From Candidatus Cloacimonadota bacterium (GTDB lineage Bacteria > Cloacimonadota > Cloacimonadia > Cloacimonadales > JAFGVF01), in contig JAEKNW010000265.1 in assembly GCA_016838885.1 (NCBI GenBank), forward strand, positions 1 through 42,000: DNA of 42,000 bases, read 5' to 3'. Numbering within the stretch: the stretch's first letter is position 1; each line of letters starts with the position of its first letter. A program made the translations under genes and the position numbers. Positions 29,709 through 35,206 of the stretch are shown piece by piece. The notes under the pieces are model-generated. The model worked only from the letters and a program-made list of their open reading frames with translations. It had not been told where the DNA came from and searched no databases.

Positions 29709-30062
29709 ATGGCAAAAAGAAAGCTAACAGACAAAGAGTTGAGCAGTATATCCAAGAATCTACTTGAAAGATATGATAAAAGAGGTTTTATACCTTATAT
29801 CGATGACGAGGATCCTGAGAAAGAGGTTATGTGGGGAACAGAATCTCAAGTAATTTATGCCCAGATTGATAAGAGTGGGAAAAATGAAATAAATGTTCCG
29901 AAAGTACATTTTTGGGCAGGAATCCACATGTTATATGCTAATTTTTTATGGGTAATTCTTTTCGTTGGGTTGGTTGTATTTACGATTCTTTTAATGATGT
30001 ATGATTTTGATATTCATAAATTATACAGAGCTATTAAGAGTTTGTTTTATGATTATGTCTAG
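29709..30062 (+). CDS. Small single-pass membrane protein, unknown
   Basis: 117 residues with no family recognised. The first 70 residues are charged and probably cytoplasmic (LTDKELSSISKNLLERYDKRGFIPYIDDEDPEKEVMWG), one transmembrane helix follows at about 76-97, and a short tail FDIHKLYRAIKSLFYDYV ends it. It lies 9 nt after the S24 repressor gene, so it is likely in the same transcript and could be the repressor's effector or co-regulated output. Start ATG 29709 with TAGGAGT upstream. Confidence 0.6.
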   Translation: MAKRKLTDKELSSISKNLLERYDKRGFIPYIDDEDPEKEVMWGTESQVIYAQIDKSGKNEINVPKVHFWAGIHMLYANFLWVILFVGLVVFTILLMMYDFDIHKLYRAIKSLFYDYV

Positions 30063-30135: not shown

Positions 30136-30164
30136 TTGACAAAAATAGAAGGAATAATTATATA
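30136..30164 (+). promoter_or_regulatory. Promoter of the PTS-IIA/antiporter cassette
   Basis: TTGACA (30136-30141), 17-nt spacer, TATATA (30159-30164), 29 nt before the ATG at 30193. The four-gene run to 33448 has gaps of 5-29 nt, so one transcript is likely. Confidence 0.75.
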
Positions 30165-30192
30165 GCCTCAAGTTTTCAAAAAGGTGGTTCTA

Positions 30193-30651
30193 ATGAGAAT
30201 ACTACAAATAAGTGATTTTATTGATGAAACAAGAATTAAAGACTTGCAGGCCAGCAATAAAACTGATGCATTAAATGAAATGATTGAATTAATTTCAAGC
30301 TCACCAAATATTAACGATAGCAATGCCTTCAAGAAAGCAATTTTTAAAAGAGAATCTCTAATGAGCACCGGGATAGGTTTAGGAATTGCTATACCTCATG
30401 CCAAAATTCCTGAATGTAAAGATTTTGTGATTGCTATTGGTCGACTAAAAAACAGCATTGAATATGAATCTCTTGATAACAAACCTGTAAATCTAATATT
30501 TATGATTGGAGCTTCAGATCAACAAGATAAAGAGTATATTAGATTGTTATCAAGATTGGTTCTTAGACTTAAAGATAATCAAGTTCAAAAGGAACTTATC
30601 AGAGCTAAAGATCAGTCAGAAATTTACTCTATTATCACCTCAGCAAAATAG
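30193..30651 (+). CDS. PTS EIIA type-2 (Fru/Ntr) domain protein
   Basis: Single-domain EIIA of the fructose/mannitol/nitrogen-PTS family (152 residues from ATG 30193, which follows AAGGTGG; GTG 30184 is an alternative start). The phosphorylatable histidine is His69 in LGIAIPHAKI, preceded by the ESLMSTGIG loop. No sugar permease (EIIB/EIIC) is near. Instead it precedes two cation:proton antiporters, so it is probably a regulatory, PtsN-like domain. PtsN is known in enterobacteria to control K+ transport, a possible precedent. HPr and EI are not in the window. Confidence 0.9.
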   Translation: MRILQISDFIDETRIKDLQASNKTDALNEMIELISSSPNINDSNAFKKAIFKRESLMSTGIGLGIAIPHAKIPECKDFVIAIGRLKNSIEYESLDNKPVNLIFMIGASDQQDKEYIRLLSRLVLRLKDNQVQKELIRAKDQSEIYSIITSAK

Positions 30652-30660
30652 TAAATAGTA

Positions 30661-31896
30661 ATGTCTGAAGTAGCATTAATTTTTTTCTTTCTAGCAGTAT
30701 CACTCTTACTGTCAATACTTACTAGCAGGGGAGTATCTCTTCTCAAGGCTCCCTTACTTTTAGGATATATCATTACCGGAGCAATAGTCGGCATTTTATT
30801 AGATATTTCAATTCCTATAAGTAATCCTTGGCAATTTAGAGCTGATGATTATGAGATTGTAAATATCATTACCTTGTCATTAATCGGTTTTGGTATTGGA
30901 ACTGAGTTAGAATACAAAGAACTCAAGAAGGTGGGGAAAACAGTCTTCTGGATAACTCTTTTTGAAGCTACACTAACTTTCTTTGTTGTGAGTTTGGTAG
31001 TTTCATTTCTACTTCATTTTACTATGGGATGGAAGATTGCTGTTCCTATGGGATTACTCTTTGGCTCTTTCGCTTCTGCTACAGCCCCAGCAGGTACTGT
31101 AGATGTAATCAAGCAATATAAAGCATCGGGAAACTTAGTAACAACTCTTTATGCAGTGCTAGGCTTAGATGATATTTTTGCCCTTCTCATTTTCACTATT
31201 ACTCTACCAATATCAATAATGCTATTAGGTTCTGATCAGTTAAGTCTCGGTGTTGCCCTATTTCATGCTGTAATTGAGATATTATTATCAGTTGGAATTG
31301 GTTCGGCAGTTGGATATGGGCTAGCTTATTTTGGTAAAAAAATTCATGAAAAATTTATGGTAACTTATCTCTCATTGGGTAGTATTTTGTTAATGTGTGC
31401 TCTTGCCGAACAGTTTGAGTTATCACCAATTCTGATAAATATGTTTGCCGGAATAGTAGTAGTTAACAGAAGTAAACTTATCGCAAGAAAACTAAATATG
31501 GCACTTACTGATTGGTCACCACCCATTTATGTCTGGTTTTTTGTCTTGATAGGTACCAGGCTTGACATCCATTTAATCCAGAAGTTCTGGTTGTTAATTA
31601 TAGTTTATATAGCTGCTACTATGCTGGGTAAGTATAACGGTGCTTATCTTGGTGCAGTTGTAGCAAAAGCACCTACCAAGATTAGAAAGTATTTAGGATT
31701 TACCTTATTATCTCAGGCAGGGGTAGCAATAGGGTTATCAATTGCAGCAAGTAAATATTTAATGAGTGCAGGATACCCCAATGAAGCTAAATTAGTTACT
31801 TCTGTAATGACTATGACAACCTTTTTAATTATGATGATAGCTCCCAATTTTGTTAAATATGGGCTTATCAAATCAGGTGAAGCAAAGATCCACTAA
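30661..31896 (+). CDS. CPA2-family cation:proton antiporter, copy 1
   Basis: Membrane antiporter of about 12-13 helices (411 residues) without any C-terminal RCK/TrkA domain. The two-aspartate ion site in GLDDIFALL (Asp170-Asp171), rather than Asn/Gln-Asp, is that of electrogenic NapA/NhaA-like Na+/H+ exchangers. The ATAPAG segment at 140-145 matches the unwound crossing helix. The second crossing region is probably LLSQAGVAIGLSIAASKYL near the C-terminus. It is clearly paralogous to the gene at 32249 (shared TAPAGT, DVI.QYKASGNL, GLDDI.ALL.). Probable role: Na+ or K+ and pH balance. Confidence 0.88.
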   Translation: MSEVALIFFFLAVSLLLSILTSRGVSLLKAPLLLGYIITGAIVGILLDISIPISNPWQFRADDYEIVNIITLSLIGFGIGTELEYKELKKVGKTVFWITLFEATLTFFVVSLVVSFLLHFTMGWKIAVPMGLLFGSFASATAPAGTVDVIKQYKASGNLVTTLYAVLGLDDIFALLIFTITLPISIMLLGSDQLSLGVALFHAVIEILLSVGIGSAVGYGLAYFGKKIHEKFMVTYLSLGSILLMCALAEQFELSPILINMFAGIVVVNRSKLIARKLNMALTDWSPPIYVWFFVLIGTRLDIHLIQKFWLLIIVYIAATMLGKYNGAYLGAVVAKAPTKIRKYLGFTLLSQAGVAIGLSIAASKYLMSAGYPNEAKLVTSVMTMTTFLIMMIAPNFVKYGLIKSGEAKIH

Positions 31897-31925
31897 CACT
31901 AAAAAATTAATATCTAGGAGTAATT

Positions 31926-32243
31926 ATGTATATGATATTTCAACTCTTTTATGAGAAGTATATATCTGATGTCTTAATGGCTATTGCTGAAGCCGGTGTA
32001 GAAGATACAATTGTTCTTTCAGGTGAAGCAACAGGGCATAAATTGATATTTGATAATCCACTATTTGCTTCTTTTAGAGATACTTATGGGACTCAGCGTG
32101 ATTATGGTAAGGTTATCATGGGCTTTGCTGATGAAGAACAAGTTGAGTTTATAGTTGACGAGTTAAAACATGCTGGTATAGACATCATTGGAGATGAGTT
32201 AGGTAAAATAATTCTTATAAACTCACATAAAATCTACGGGTAA
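31926..32243 (+). CDS. Small PII-like (ferredoxin-fold) protein
   Basis: 105 residues with alternating strands and helices: an opening strand MIFQLFYEKYISDVLMAIAEAGVEDTIVLSGEA (about 3-35), a variable loop at about 36-55, then KVIMGFADEEQVEFIVDELKHAGIDIIGDELGKIILINSH. This beta-alpha-beta, beta-alpha-beta layout and length match PII/GlnB-like sensors and small trimeric relatives. The specific PII signature is not evident and no T-loop tyrosine can be assigned. AGGAG lies 5 nt before the ATG. It sits between two antiporters, a good place for a cytosolic regulatory subunit. Confidence 0.6.
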   Translation: MYMIFQLFYEKYISDVLMAIAEAGVEDTIVLSGEATGHKLIFDNPLFASFRDTYGTQRDYGKVIMGFADEEQVEFIVDELKHAGIDIIGDELGKIILINSHKIYG

Positions 32244-32248
32244 ATAGC

Positions 32249-33448
32249 ATGGAACAATACCTATTTTTAGGTTTTATTGGTATCTCAATTTTACTTTCAA
32301 TTTTAATGGCCAAAGGAGTATCTCTTTTTCATGCTCCTATGGTATTAGGATACATTCTTGCCGGTGCAGTTATTGGTCAGAGTATTTTTCTTTTTGGAAT
32401 AGATATTAAGTATGATACCTTTGATTTAATTAATTCTATAACTCTCTCACTATTAGGTTTAGGTATTGGTACAGAATTAAAACTAAATGATTTGAAGAAG
32501 TTAGGATCAGGCATCATTACCATAGTGATTTTTGAAGCTACAATGACTTTTCTTTTAGTTGGGGGCGTTGTATATCTAGTTACTCAGAATGTCTCATTAG
32601 GGATAATCTATGGAGCTCTAGCTAGTGCTACTGCTCCAGCTGGTACTACAGATGTAATTAATCAATATAAAGCTTCAGGAAATCTAACTAAAACCCTCTA
32701 TGCAGTGATGGGATTAGACGATATTTATGCCTTGTTAATCTACTCTATTGCTATTCCTATTGCTATCATTTTGTTAGGTTCAAATGAAATTACTGTTGGA
32801 CAAGCTTTAATAAAAGCTGGAATAGAGTTAGTTCTAGCTATTGGAATTGGTATTGGATCAGGATTTTTCATAGTATGGATTATTAAAAAGATTCACGATA
32901 ATATCATAATGCTCTTATTCGCTTTGGGTATGCTTTTCGTCAATTGCTCTATTGCTATAGGATTAGAAATATCTCCAATTTTGTTAAATATGTGTGTTGG
33001 AATAGTGTTAGTTAATAGTAGTAGTTTGCTGTCACGGAAGTTAAATACATCTCTAAGTAGTTGGTCTCCTCCTATCTATGTTATTTTTTTTGTATTAATT
33101 GGGACAAAATTAGACTTTCACATGATTTACGCAAATTGGATTATGATTATAATTTATATACTAACAAGAACAATAGGAAAGTGGAGTGGAGCTTACTTTG
33201 GGTGTAAAATCTCCCATGCTCCCAAGCTTACCACAAAATATCTTGGATTTACTCTTTTATCCCAAGCAGGTGTTGCTATCGGGCTTACCTTGGCTACAGC
33301 TCATTACCTAATTAATGCCGGGTATCAAACGGAAGCTGGACAACTTGTAAGCATCATGGTAGGTACTACCTTCTTAATCATGCTGGCTGGTCCGGCCTCA
33401 GCAAAATATGGATTGAAAAAAGCAGGGGAAATTAAAAAACTGCAATAG
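32249..33448 (+). CDS. CPA2-family cation:proton antiporter, copy 2
   Basis: Second antiporter (399 residues), closely similar to the gene at 30661 through the whole length: ASATAPAGTTDVINQYKASGNL, GLDDIYALL (Asp157-Asp158), SWSPPIYV and LGFTLLSQAGVAIGL. No cytoplasmic regulatory domain. Being encoded as a pair with copy 1 and a small ferredoxin-fold protein between them suggests a heteromeric or duplicated transporter. It starts 5 nt after the PII-like stop. The gene ends at the edge of the repeat island. Confidence 0.88.
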   Translation: MEQYLFLGFIGISILLSILMAKGVSLFHAPMVLGYILAGAVIGQSIFLFGIDIKYDTFDLINSITLSLLGLGIGTELKLNDLKKLGSGIITIVIFEATMTFLLVGGVVYLVTQNVSLGIIYGALASATAPAGTTDVINQYKASGNLTKTLYAVMGLDDIYALLIYSIAIPIAIILLGSNEITVGQALIKAGIELVLAIGIGIGSGFFIVWIIKKIHDNIIMLLFALGMLFVNCSIAIGLEISPILLNMCVGIVLVNSSSLLSRKLNTSLSSWSPPIYVIFFVLIGTKLDFHMIYANWIMIIIYILTRTIGKWSGAYFGCKISHAPKLTTKYLGFTLLSQAGVAIGLTLATAHYLINAGYQTEAGQLVSIMVGTTFLIMLAGPASAKYGLKKAGEIKKLQ

Positions 33449-33455
33449 AAGAAAA

Positions 33456-33601
33456 GTTAAGAGTTAAGAGTTAAGAGTTAAGAGTTAAGAGTGAAGAGTG
33501 AAGAGTTAAGAGTTAAGAGTTAAGAGTGAAGAGTGAAGAGTTAAGAGTTAAGAGTTAAGAGTGAAGAGTTAAGAGTTAAGAGTTAAGAGTTAAGAGTGAA
33601 G
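33456..33601. repeat. 7-bp tandem repeat, 21 units in two variants
   Basis: Units of GTTAAGA and GTGAAGA run without interruption; the last unit is one base short. In order the counts are five GTTAAGA, two GTGAAGA, three, two, three, one, four, one, so the variants are grouped rather than random. No reading frame is evident. It starts 7 nt after the second antiporter's stop. Confidence 0.95.
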
Positions 33602-34283: not shown

Positions 34284-34302
34284 CTGGGGTATGGTTTTAG
34301 GT

Positions 34303-34348
34303 TTTAGGGTTTAGGGTTTAGGGTTTAGGGTTTAGGGTTTAGGGTTTA
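34303..34348 (+). repeat. Telomere-like (TTTAGGG)6 tract
   Basis: Six perfect tandem TTTAGGG units (34303-34344) plus TTTA, preceded by two degenerate units (GGTTTTAGG). It sits 20 bp past the rsmI stop. The sequence is identical to the plant-type telomere repeat, but here it is an ordinary intergenic tract. Confidence 0.95.
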
Positions 34349-34368: not shown

Positions 34369-35187
34369 TTACTTCAAGTTATTATCTAAGAATAATTGAT
34401 ATAGTTTATTTTTCTTTAATCCCCATTTCTTGCTAATATCTTTGGCAATTTGACTTAATGAATCCCCTTCAAGTAATAGTTGCTTTGCTTCTTCTAAAAT
34501 TTGATCATCATTAGGTAGAGTTTCCTGAAATCCTTCAACTACAACTACGAATTCACCTTTTAGAGTTATCTCTTCAAACCCATTTATATAATATGAAAGA
34601 AAACCTCGATATACACTTTGATAGAGTTTACTAATCTCTCTTACAATGGCAATTTTTCGGTCTCCTAAGTTATCAAAAAGATTTTTTAGGGTTATCTCAA
34701 GACTGTGAGGGGATACATAGAATATGAGGGTTTGGCCTTGTTCCTTGATGTTCTTAAAAAGGATGATTTTATCTTTATTCTTCTCTGGGATAAAACCACA
34801 AAAAGTGAAACTATCAGTATTTAATCCAGACAGAATTAAGGCTGGAATAGTAGCTGTTGCCCCAGGTAAAACATCAAAGGGAATATTATTTTGAATTGCT
34901 TCTTTAATTAAATATGCTGATGGATCTGAAATCCCTGGAGTACCAGCATCTGAGATGAGAGCTAGATTGAGTCCTGCTTGCAGTTTAGTTATTAGTTCTT
35001 GTGAGCGTTTGCTCTCATTGAATTTATGATAACTTACTGTTGGAGTGGTTATATCATAGTGTTTAAGAAGTTTTCTCGATGTTCTGGTATCTTCGCAGGC
35101 TATGAGATCAACTTCTTTCAAGATTCTAATCGCTCTCAAGGTAATATCCTCTAAATTTCCAATGGGAGTTGGTACAATATATAACAT
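34369..35187 (-). CDS. rsmI: 16S rRNA 2'-O-methyltransferase RsmI
   Basis: Methylates the ribose of C1402 in 16S rRNA, tuning decoding. The family hallmarks are all near the N-terminus: YIVPTPIGNL, ACEDTRTSRKLL and the tetrapyrrole-methylase-fold SDAGTPGISDP. The C-terminal 60 residues form the usual helical tail with the DSLSQIAKDISKKWGLKKNKLY segment. Start at ATG 35187 with AAGGA closely upstream; an in-frame TTG at 35199 is less likely. 272 residues, normal. It lies after a strong terminator and needs its own promoter, which I did not identify. Confidence 0.95.
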   Translation of the reverse strand: MLYIVPTPIGNLEDITLRAIRILKEVDLIACEDTRTSRKLLKHYDITTPTVSYHKFNESKRSQELITKLQAGLNLALISDAGTPGISDPSAYLIKEAIQNNIPFDVLPGATATIPALILSGLNTDSFTFCGFIPEKNKDKIILFKNIKEQGQTLIFYVSPHSLEITLKNLFDNLGDRKIAIVREISKLYQSVYRGFLSYYINGFEEITLKGEFVVVVEGFQETLPNDDQILEEAKQLLLEGDSLSQIAKDISKKWGLKKNKLYQLFLDNNLK

Positions 35188-35206
35188 AATATCCTTCAAT
35201 GTAATA

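Follow-up and report, generated by a model that had tools for sequence, protein, structure and literature searches.

How are cation:proton antiporters (CPA) controlled when they end at their membrane domain? The question is raised by a 42,000-nucleotide stretch of DNA from Candidatus Cloacimonadota bacterium (GenBank assembly GCA_016838885.1, contig JAEKNW010000265.1, positions 1 to 42,000 of the forward strand; hereafter the window), where two such antiporters, AntA and AntB, are encoded together with an EIIA protein of the phosphoenolpyruvate (PEP)-dependent phosphotransferase system (PTS) and a small protein of 105 amino acids. Because the gene order is conserved and the small protein is PII by predicted fold, the EIIA protein and the PII-like protein are strong candidates for regulatory subunits that act in trans on antiporters without an RCK domain. 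We consider it likely that they are post-translational, detachable subunits acting together on cation:proton antiporters. A wider reading is somewhat favoured, namely that EIIA and PII form a portable controller with two inputs, PTS phosphorylation and a PII ligand, which non-homologous CPA and Mrp antiporters have repeatedly recruited in at least three bacterial lineages and which constitutes an unnamed module with its own PII family.

Genes of the cassette and predicted folds of their products

The first-pass annotation had read the four genes as one unit on a likely common transcript. They lie on the + strand in the order EIIA, AntA, PII-like, AntB, with intergenic gaps of 9, 29 and 5 nucleotides:

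30179..30192, +, ribosome-binding site AAGGTGG and spacer 5' of the EIIA ATG, read from the sequence
30193..30651, +, stand-alone EIIA of PtsN/fructose type, 152 amino acids, with phospho-acceptor His69 in GIAIPHAK; PF00359 (E=1.9e-35)
30661..31896, +, AntA, membrane-only cation:proton antiporter, 411 amino acids, with Asp170-Asp171; PF00999 (E=1.4e-28)
31926..32243, +, PII-like protein, 105 amino acids, beta-alpha-beta-beta-alpha-beta, with the invariant P45-x-F47 in the T-loop region; AlphaFold2 model with a predicted local distance difference test score (pLDDT) of 87
32249..33448, +, AntB, second membrane-only antiporter, 399 amino acids; PF00999 (E=3.2e-26); 52% identity with AntA

All four open reading frames are present, and no convincing terminator was found inside the cassette; the single unit is borne out to that extent. 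Promoter and terminator scans gave results at chance level. A riboswitch or other known RNA element was sought upstream at the cassette and none was found.

The EIIA protein belongs to the fructose/mannitol/Ntr family, and its closest solved structure is PtsN/IIANtr (1A6J, E=3e-17). The ATG at 30193, preceded by AAGGTGG, is a better start than the listed GTG at 30184; with the start set there the active histidine is His69, in agreement with the earlier description of a stand-alone EIIA. This phospho-acceptor is kept in all PII-linked EIIA copies examined (115/115, of which 65 are fused and 50 adjacent).

The small protein has no Pfam, NCBIfam or PDB sequence match above threshold, and canonical P-II (PF00543) is among the families that it does not match. 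Its AlphaFold2 model has a ferredoxin-like fold, and the structures it resembles in the PDB, 50 of the 50 listed, all belong to the PII superfamily (GlnK, PII, SbtB, CPII and PotN; probability 1.00, best E 1.9e-4, template modelling (TM) score about 0.5-0.6). Distant homology points the same way: a family member of the Mrp type from a spirochaete scores 20.7 bits against PF00543 (cut-off 25, E=5e-4, sub-threshold), and the weak PDB matches of this member, ten in all, are without exception PII or PII-like proteins. On these two lines of evidence, predicted fold and remote similarity, the protein is PII-like and lies outside PF00543. The first-pass annotation had called it a small ferredoxin-fold, PII-like protein and had named an unrelated enzyme family as the finding that would tell against it; by fold, its home is the PII superfamily. 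In the T-loop region P45 is present in 110 of 111 PII domains and F47 in 108 of 111. The protein is presumably trimeric. The PII-like protein BB0017 of Borrelia was considered as a lead and rejected, as it belongs to the YitT/DUF2179 family and is a different protein.

AntA and AntB match PF00999 and no further Pfam domain; both stop at the membrane domain, without a C-terminal RCK, CBS or USP domain; for RCK this had been noted before. The AlphaFold2 model of AntA (pLDDT 84, predicted TM score 0.82) has the NhaP/NapA fold, and Foldseek matched it to NHA2, PaNhaP, NapA, MjNhaP1 and KefC with TM scores of 0.66-0.80, the first four being the best. Asp170-Asp171, an electrogenic-type ion site of CPA2, is invariant in ten antiporter sequences from five subtypes. 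The two proteins are separated by long branches in the tree, and each retains the Asp-Asp (DD) pair and every invariant residue. Of the earlier description as paralogous CPA2 antiporters with a DD site, the paralogy, the CPA antiporter fold and the site stand; with the family model for CPA2 proper, TIGR00932, AntA scores 38.7 bits where 238.3 are required, and AntB has no match.

The source genome (3.3 Mb, 99.3% complete) encodes HPr kinase, HPr and EI together in an HPrK-HPr-EI operon (G000:C98), and a route for phosphorylation of EIIA is available. Two families of sugar PTS components were tested, PTS_EIIC (PF02378) and PTS_IIB (PF02302), and neither was found in this genome; the search for canonical P-II (PF00543) was likewise negative. 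The PTS looks regulatory because the HPrK-HPr-EI set is present and PF02378 and PF02302 are missing. Six EIIA domains are encoded in the genome and four of them, that of the window included, are linked to transporters. One forms the C-terminal domain of an 830-amino-acid CPA antiporter (G000:C46; L110 2381-4873, - strand), and an antiporter-EIIA fusion of 704 amino acids occurs in a spirochaete (L132 3000-5114). Another EIIA domain is fused to the C-terminus of an amino-acid permease (G000:C128; L111 737-2584, - strand), and an EIIA-CBS-CBS protein is encoded beside a CitMHS/ArsB/NhaD-like transporter, which represents another class of ion or anion transporters (G000:C100; L112 1234-3436, - strand).

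Conservation of the cassette and association with other antiporters

The conserved gene order proposed as a check of the first reading was found: the cassette of EIIA, antiporter and PII recurs far beyond chance, with the same genes grouped in dozens of genomes. The small protein as sole query had matches in 29 of 59 relatives, and a profile found it in 76 of 125 genomes of the phylum. The gene orders are EIIA-antiporter-PII and EIIA-PII-antiporter, with EIIA-antiporter-PII-antiporter in the window and in one relative (G008). Antiporters of the AntA clade (at least 47% identity) are present in 42 genomes and stand in an EIIA cassette in every one. The PII gene is on the same contig in 39 of these; in the other three (G001, G103 and G106) EIIA lies directly upstream and the contig stops inside or just past the antiporter.

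Among 120 distinct open reading frames with a PII domain from all collected loci, 67 are fused to EIIA, 41 are adjacent to it and 12 are without it. For 11 of these 12 the contig ends nearby or the stretch is too short for an EIIA to be seen. The median distance from such a reading frame to the nearest antiporter is 10 nucleotides. Fusion is seen in a second operon, ruvX-mltG-antiporter followed by a gene for 274 amino acids, where EIIA and PII form a single polypeptide, and likewise in a third operon near tadA or ansA. The divergence of EIIA, antiporter and PII is correlated (r 0.72-0.85, reached by 0 of 2000 permutations, n=19), which fits co-inheritance.

Some loci depart from these patterns. 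The twelfth reading frame without EIIA is a divergent PII-like protein near acpS that also lacks P-x-F (L180 and L190; L190 6571-6909, + strand) and possibly represents a different PII-like family. In L133 (4345-5229, - strand), beside an antiporter of the Ant_iv type, the PII domain joined to EIIA is highly degenerate yet retains MPLFASL. A 568-amino-acid reading frame in L088 was rejected as a triple fusion of antiporter, EIIA and PII, its antiporter part being truncated and the junction frameshift-like.

The association extends to other antiporters and beyond the phylum. When 84,980 species genomes were searched for the fused subtype, 40 loci turned up, distributed over Cloacimonadota, Spirochaetota (among them the isolate Marispirochaeta associata), Kiritimatiellae/PVC and Haloferula; the query was the type-iii PII alignment, and these loci sample that one subtype. 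Where the neighbourhood was readable, most had an antiporter directly upstream. Many of the loci derive from a single series of sediment samples with the label CSSed, which we take to be from a soda lake. In a tblastn search of plasmids with the EIIA-PII fusion, the matches listed covered the EIIA half only.

The EIIA and PII pair adjoins several clades of CPA antiporters. In spirochaete genomes that bear the fused type, a stand-alone PII and EIIA also head or sit in an Mrp operon (L185, L187, L188, L189 and L195), and the pair is found within the Mrp operon in Cloacimonadota as well (L048 and L085). Mrp and CPA antiporters are not homologous, so that the exchangers with which EIIA and PII have become associated comprise at least two unrelated classes. 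The EIIA of the Mrp operon in Cloacimonadota has lost the GIAIP motif and retained the histidine. What had been described from the window is thus only a corner of a larger pattern, in which the pair is mostly fused and also accompanies other CPA clades and Mrp.

Some features around the cassette stand apart from it. Upstream, at 29709-30062, a protein of 117 amino acids with a single transmembrane segment is encoded; it has no Pfam match, and the fetched loci contain no homologue of it. The interval between AntB and the next gene holds two tandem arrays of 7 base pairs, AGTTAAG x21 (95% matches) at 33455-33601 and TTTAGGG x7.6 at 34296-34348. It is followed by rsmI on the opposite strand (34369-35199, -). 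In another genome (G107) the EIIA and PII pair likewise neighbours rsmI, which there precedes it (L084 3464-5150, + strand), and no antiporter is seen before the contig ends.

Proposed regulation of the antiporters and alternative explanations

In E. coli, PtsN in its unphosphorylated form binds YcgO, a CPA1 antiporter, and inhibits it (PMC11808508). In a second precedent, the PII-like protein SbtB inserts its T-loop into an inter-domain cleft of the transporter SbtA (PMC8352866). By analogy, PEP would phosphorylate EIIA on His69 through EI and HPr, so that the state of EIIA would report the PEP/pyruvate state, that is, energy and carbon supply. The PII-like protein would sense a small ligand and present a structured T-loop with the conserved P-x-F. 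Both might act jointly from the cytoplasmic side, in the simplest form by binding the antiporter and gating its exchange of Na+/H+ or K+/H+, and they would stand in for the RCK, CBS or USP domains present in cis in other members of the family. Ion exchange is in this way probably tuned by the module to energy and metabolite state. A more distant antiporter in G010, of 574 amino acids, supports joint regulation by EIIA and PII: it has no such pair, and ends in CBS domains of its own.

Several points weigh against this reading. That the proteins bind the antiporter, that EIIA without its phosphate inhibits it and that the T-loop docks are inferred, as are the ion and the ligand. The nucleotide-binding residues of PII are not clearly conserved in the family, and conservation of the B-loop lysine is not apparent in alignment A4. 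Since members of the PII superfamily form trimers and CPA antiporters are dimeric, direct docking would need a symmetry mismatch or an indirect contact. AntA and AntB are also without the CorC-type docking site through which YcgO contacts PtsN, and the correlated divergence, obtained without an unlinked control gene, is partly expected from shared descent.

Four other explanations compete with joint regulation of the antiporter by EIIA and PII. It is possible, if doubtful, that only one of the two proteins controls the antiporter and the other controls its partner, for example with the ligand state of PII setting the phosphorylation of EIIA, which could equally be a sub-case of joint regulation. 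The fusion of EIIA and PII in 67 of the 120 reading frames makes their tie to each other at least as tight as that to the antiporter, the pair stands without an antiporter up to the contig end in L084, and antiporters fused to EIIA alone exist in the source genome and in the spirochaete locus L132; on the other hand, stand-alone PII often abuts the antiporter with EIIA on the other side, as in EIIA-antiporter-PII. It is unlikely that the pair is merely co-expressed with the antiporter as a co-regulated output and has its target elsewhere, in KdpD- or TrkA-like proteins or in transcription. E. coli PtsN does regulate TrkA and KdpD too (PMC13104625), and contact between the pair and the antiporter is a matter of analogy. 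However, the pair tracks unrelated antiporters (CPA clades and Mrp) at differing chromosomal places, usually immediately adjacent to them, and these antiporters have no regulatory domains of their own.

The first-pass annotation had joined its proposal of EIIA and PII as regulatory subunits, which the conserved gene order and the PII fold support, to a possible heterodimer of AntA and AntB; the latter part is not supported. If AntA and AntB formed an obligate heterodimer, with its assembly under the control of the intervening small protein, this would suit the finding that antiporters flank PII both in the window and at locus L043 of G008. The G008 pair sits in another clade than AntA and AntB, so the doubling arose at least twice, and most cassettes have a single antiporter. 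As both AntA and AntB keep the DD pair and all invariant residues, and the model has a normal antiporter fold, the heterodimer is improbable. Scarcely any credence is left for an EIIA that belongs to a sugar PTS and lies beside the antiporters by accident. Its membership in the fructose/mannitol/Ntr family would suit that explanation, which is already contradicted by the lack of PF02378 and PF02302 in the 99.3% complete genome by the linkage of four of the six EIIA domains to transporters, and by the conservation of the linkage across phyla.

Relation to known systems

The known routes of control over Na+ and K+/H+ antiporters are mainly RCK, CBS or the sensing of glutathione, to which E. coli adds the action of PtsN on YcgO. 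If the wider reading of a portable controller is true, Na+ or K+/H+ exchange would be linked directly to PEP and energy state and also to another metabolite or messenger. The hosts of the module include anaerobes with Na+ bioenergetics (PMC8542988) and spirochaetes from saline sediments. The module would offer a concrete role for a regulatory PTS in a genome without the main families of sugar PTS permeases, it contributes a PII family absent from Pfam, and it gives a functional lead for two genes of Mrp operons. The compact two-gene systems, an antiporter and an EIIA-PII fusion, are suited to study in vesicles.

An EIIA acting on an antiporter and a PII acting on a transporter are both already known. 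The combination of EIIA, PII and antiporter was found nowhere in the literature searched (open-licence papers), and as a widespread, portable and often fused module with its own PII family it is apparently undescribed. The nearest parallel is PtsN and the K+/H+ antiporter YcgO, where a CPA antiporter is likewise controlled in trans by a member of this EIIA family, according to the phosphorylation state of the EIIA. YcgO differs in bearing RCK and CorC domains at its C-terminus, a PII partner has not been described for it, and EIIANtr is pleiotropic and not dedicated to the antiporter, whereas in the present cassette the antiporter that EIIA and PII accompany lacks a cytosolic domain. SbtB-SbtA and GlnK-AmtB (PMC8352866) share a PII-fold protein that is commonly encoded beside the transporter and has the T-loop as its effector. 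The targets differ, however, SbtB acting on a bicarbonate transporter and GlnK on an ammonium channel, and there is no EIIA partner; the present PII family is set apart from SbtB and GlnK by its missing Pfam entry, its sub-threshold score for PF00543 and the invariant P-x-F in the T-loop region.

LacS (PMC10710835) also carries an EIIA-like domain on a secondary transporter and is controlled through phosphorylation by HPr, but its fused domain is EIIAGlc-like and thus of a different EIIA family, its substrate is a sugar, lactose, and it has no PII domain. KefC, KefB and other CPA2 proteins with RCK, CBS or USP domains have the same membrane fold, KefC being among the Foldseek matches of AntA. 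In those proteins regulation is built in at the C-terminus, whereas here the EIIA and PII proteins, either separate or fused to each other, would supply it.

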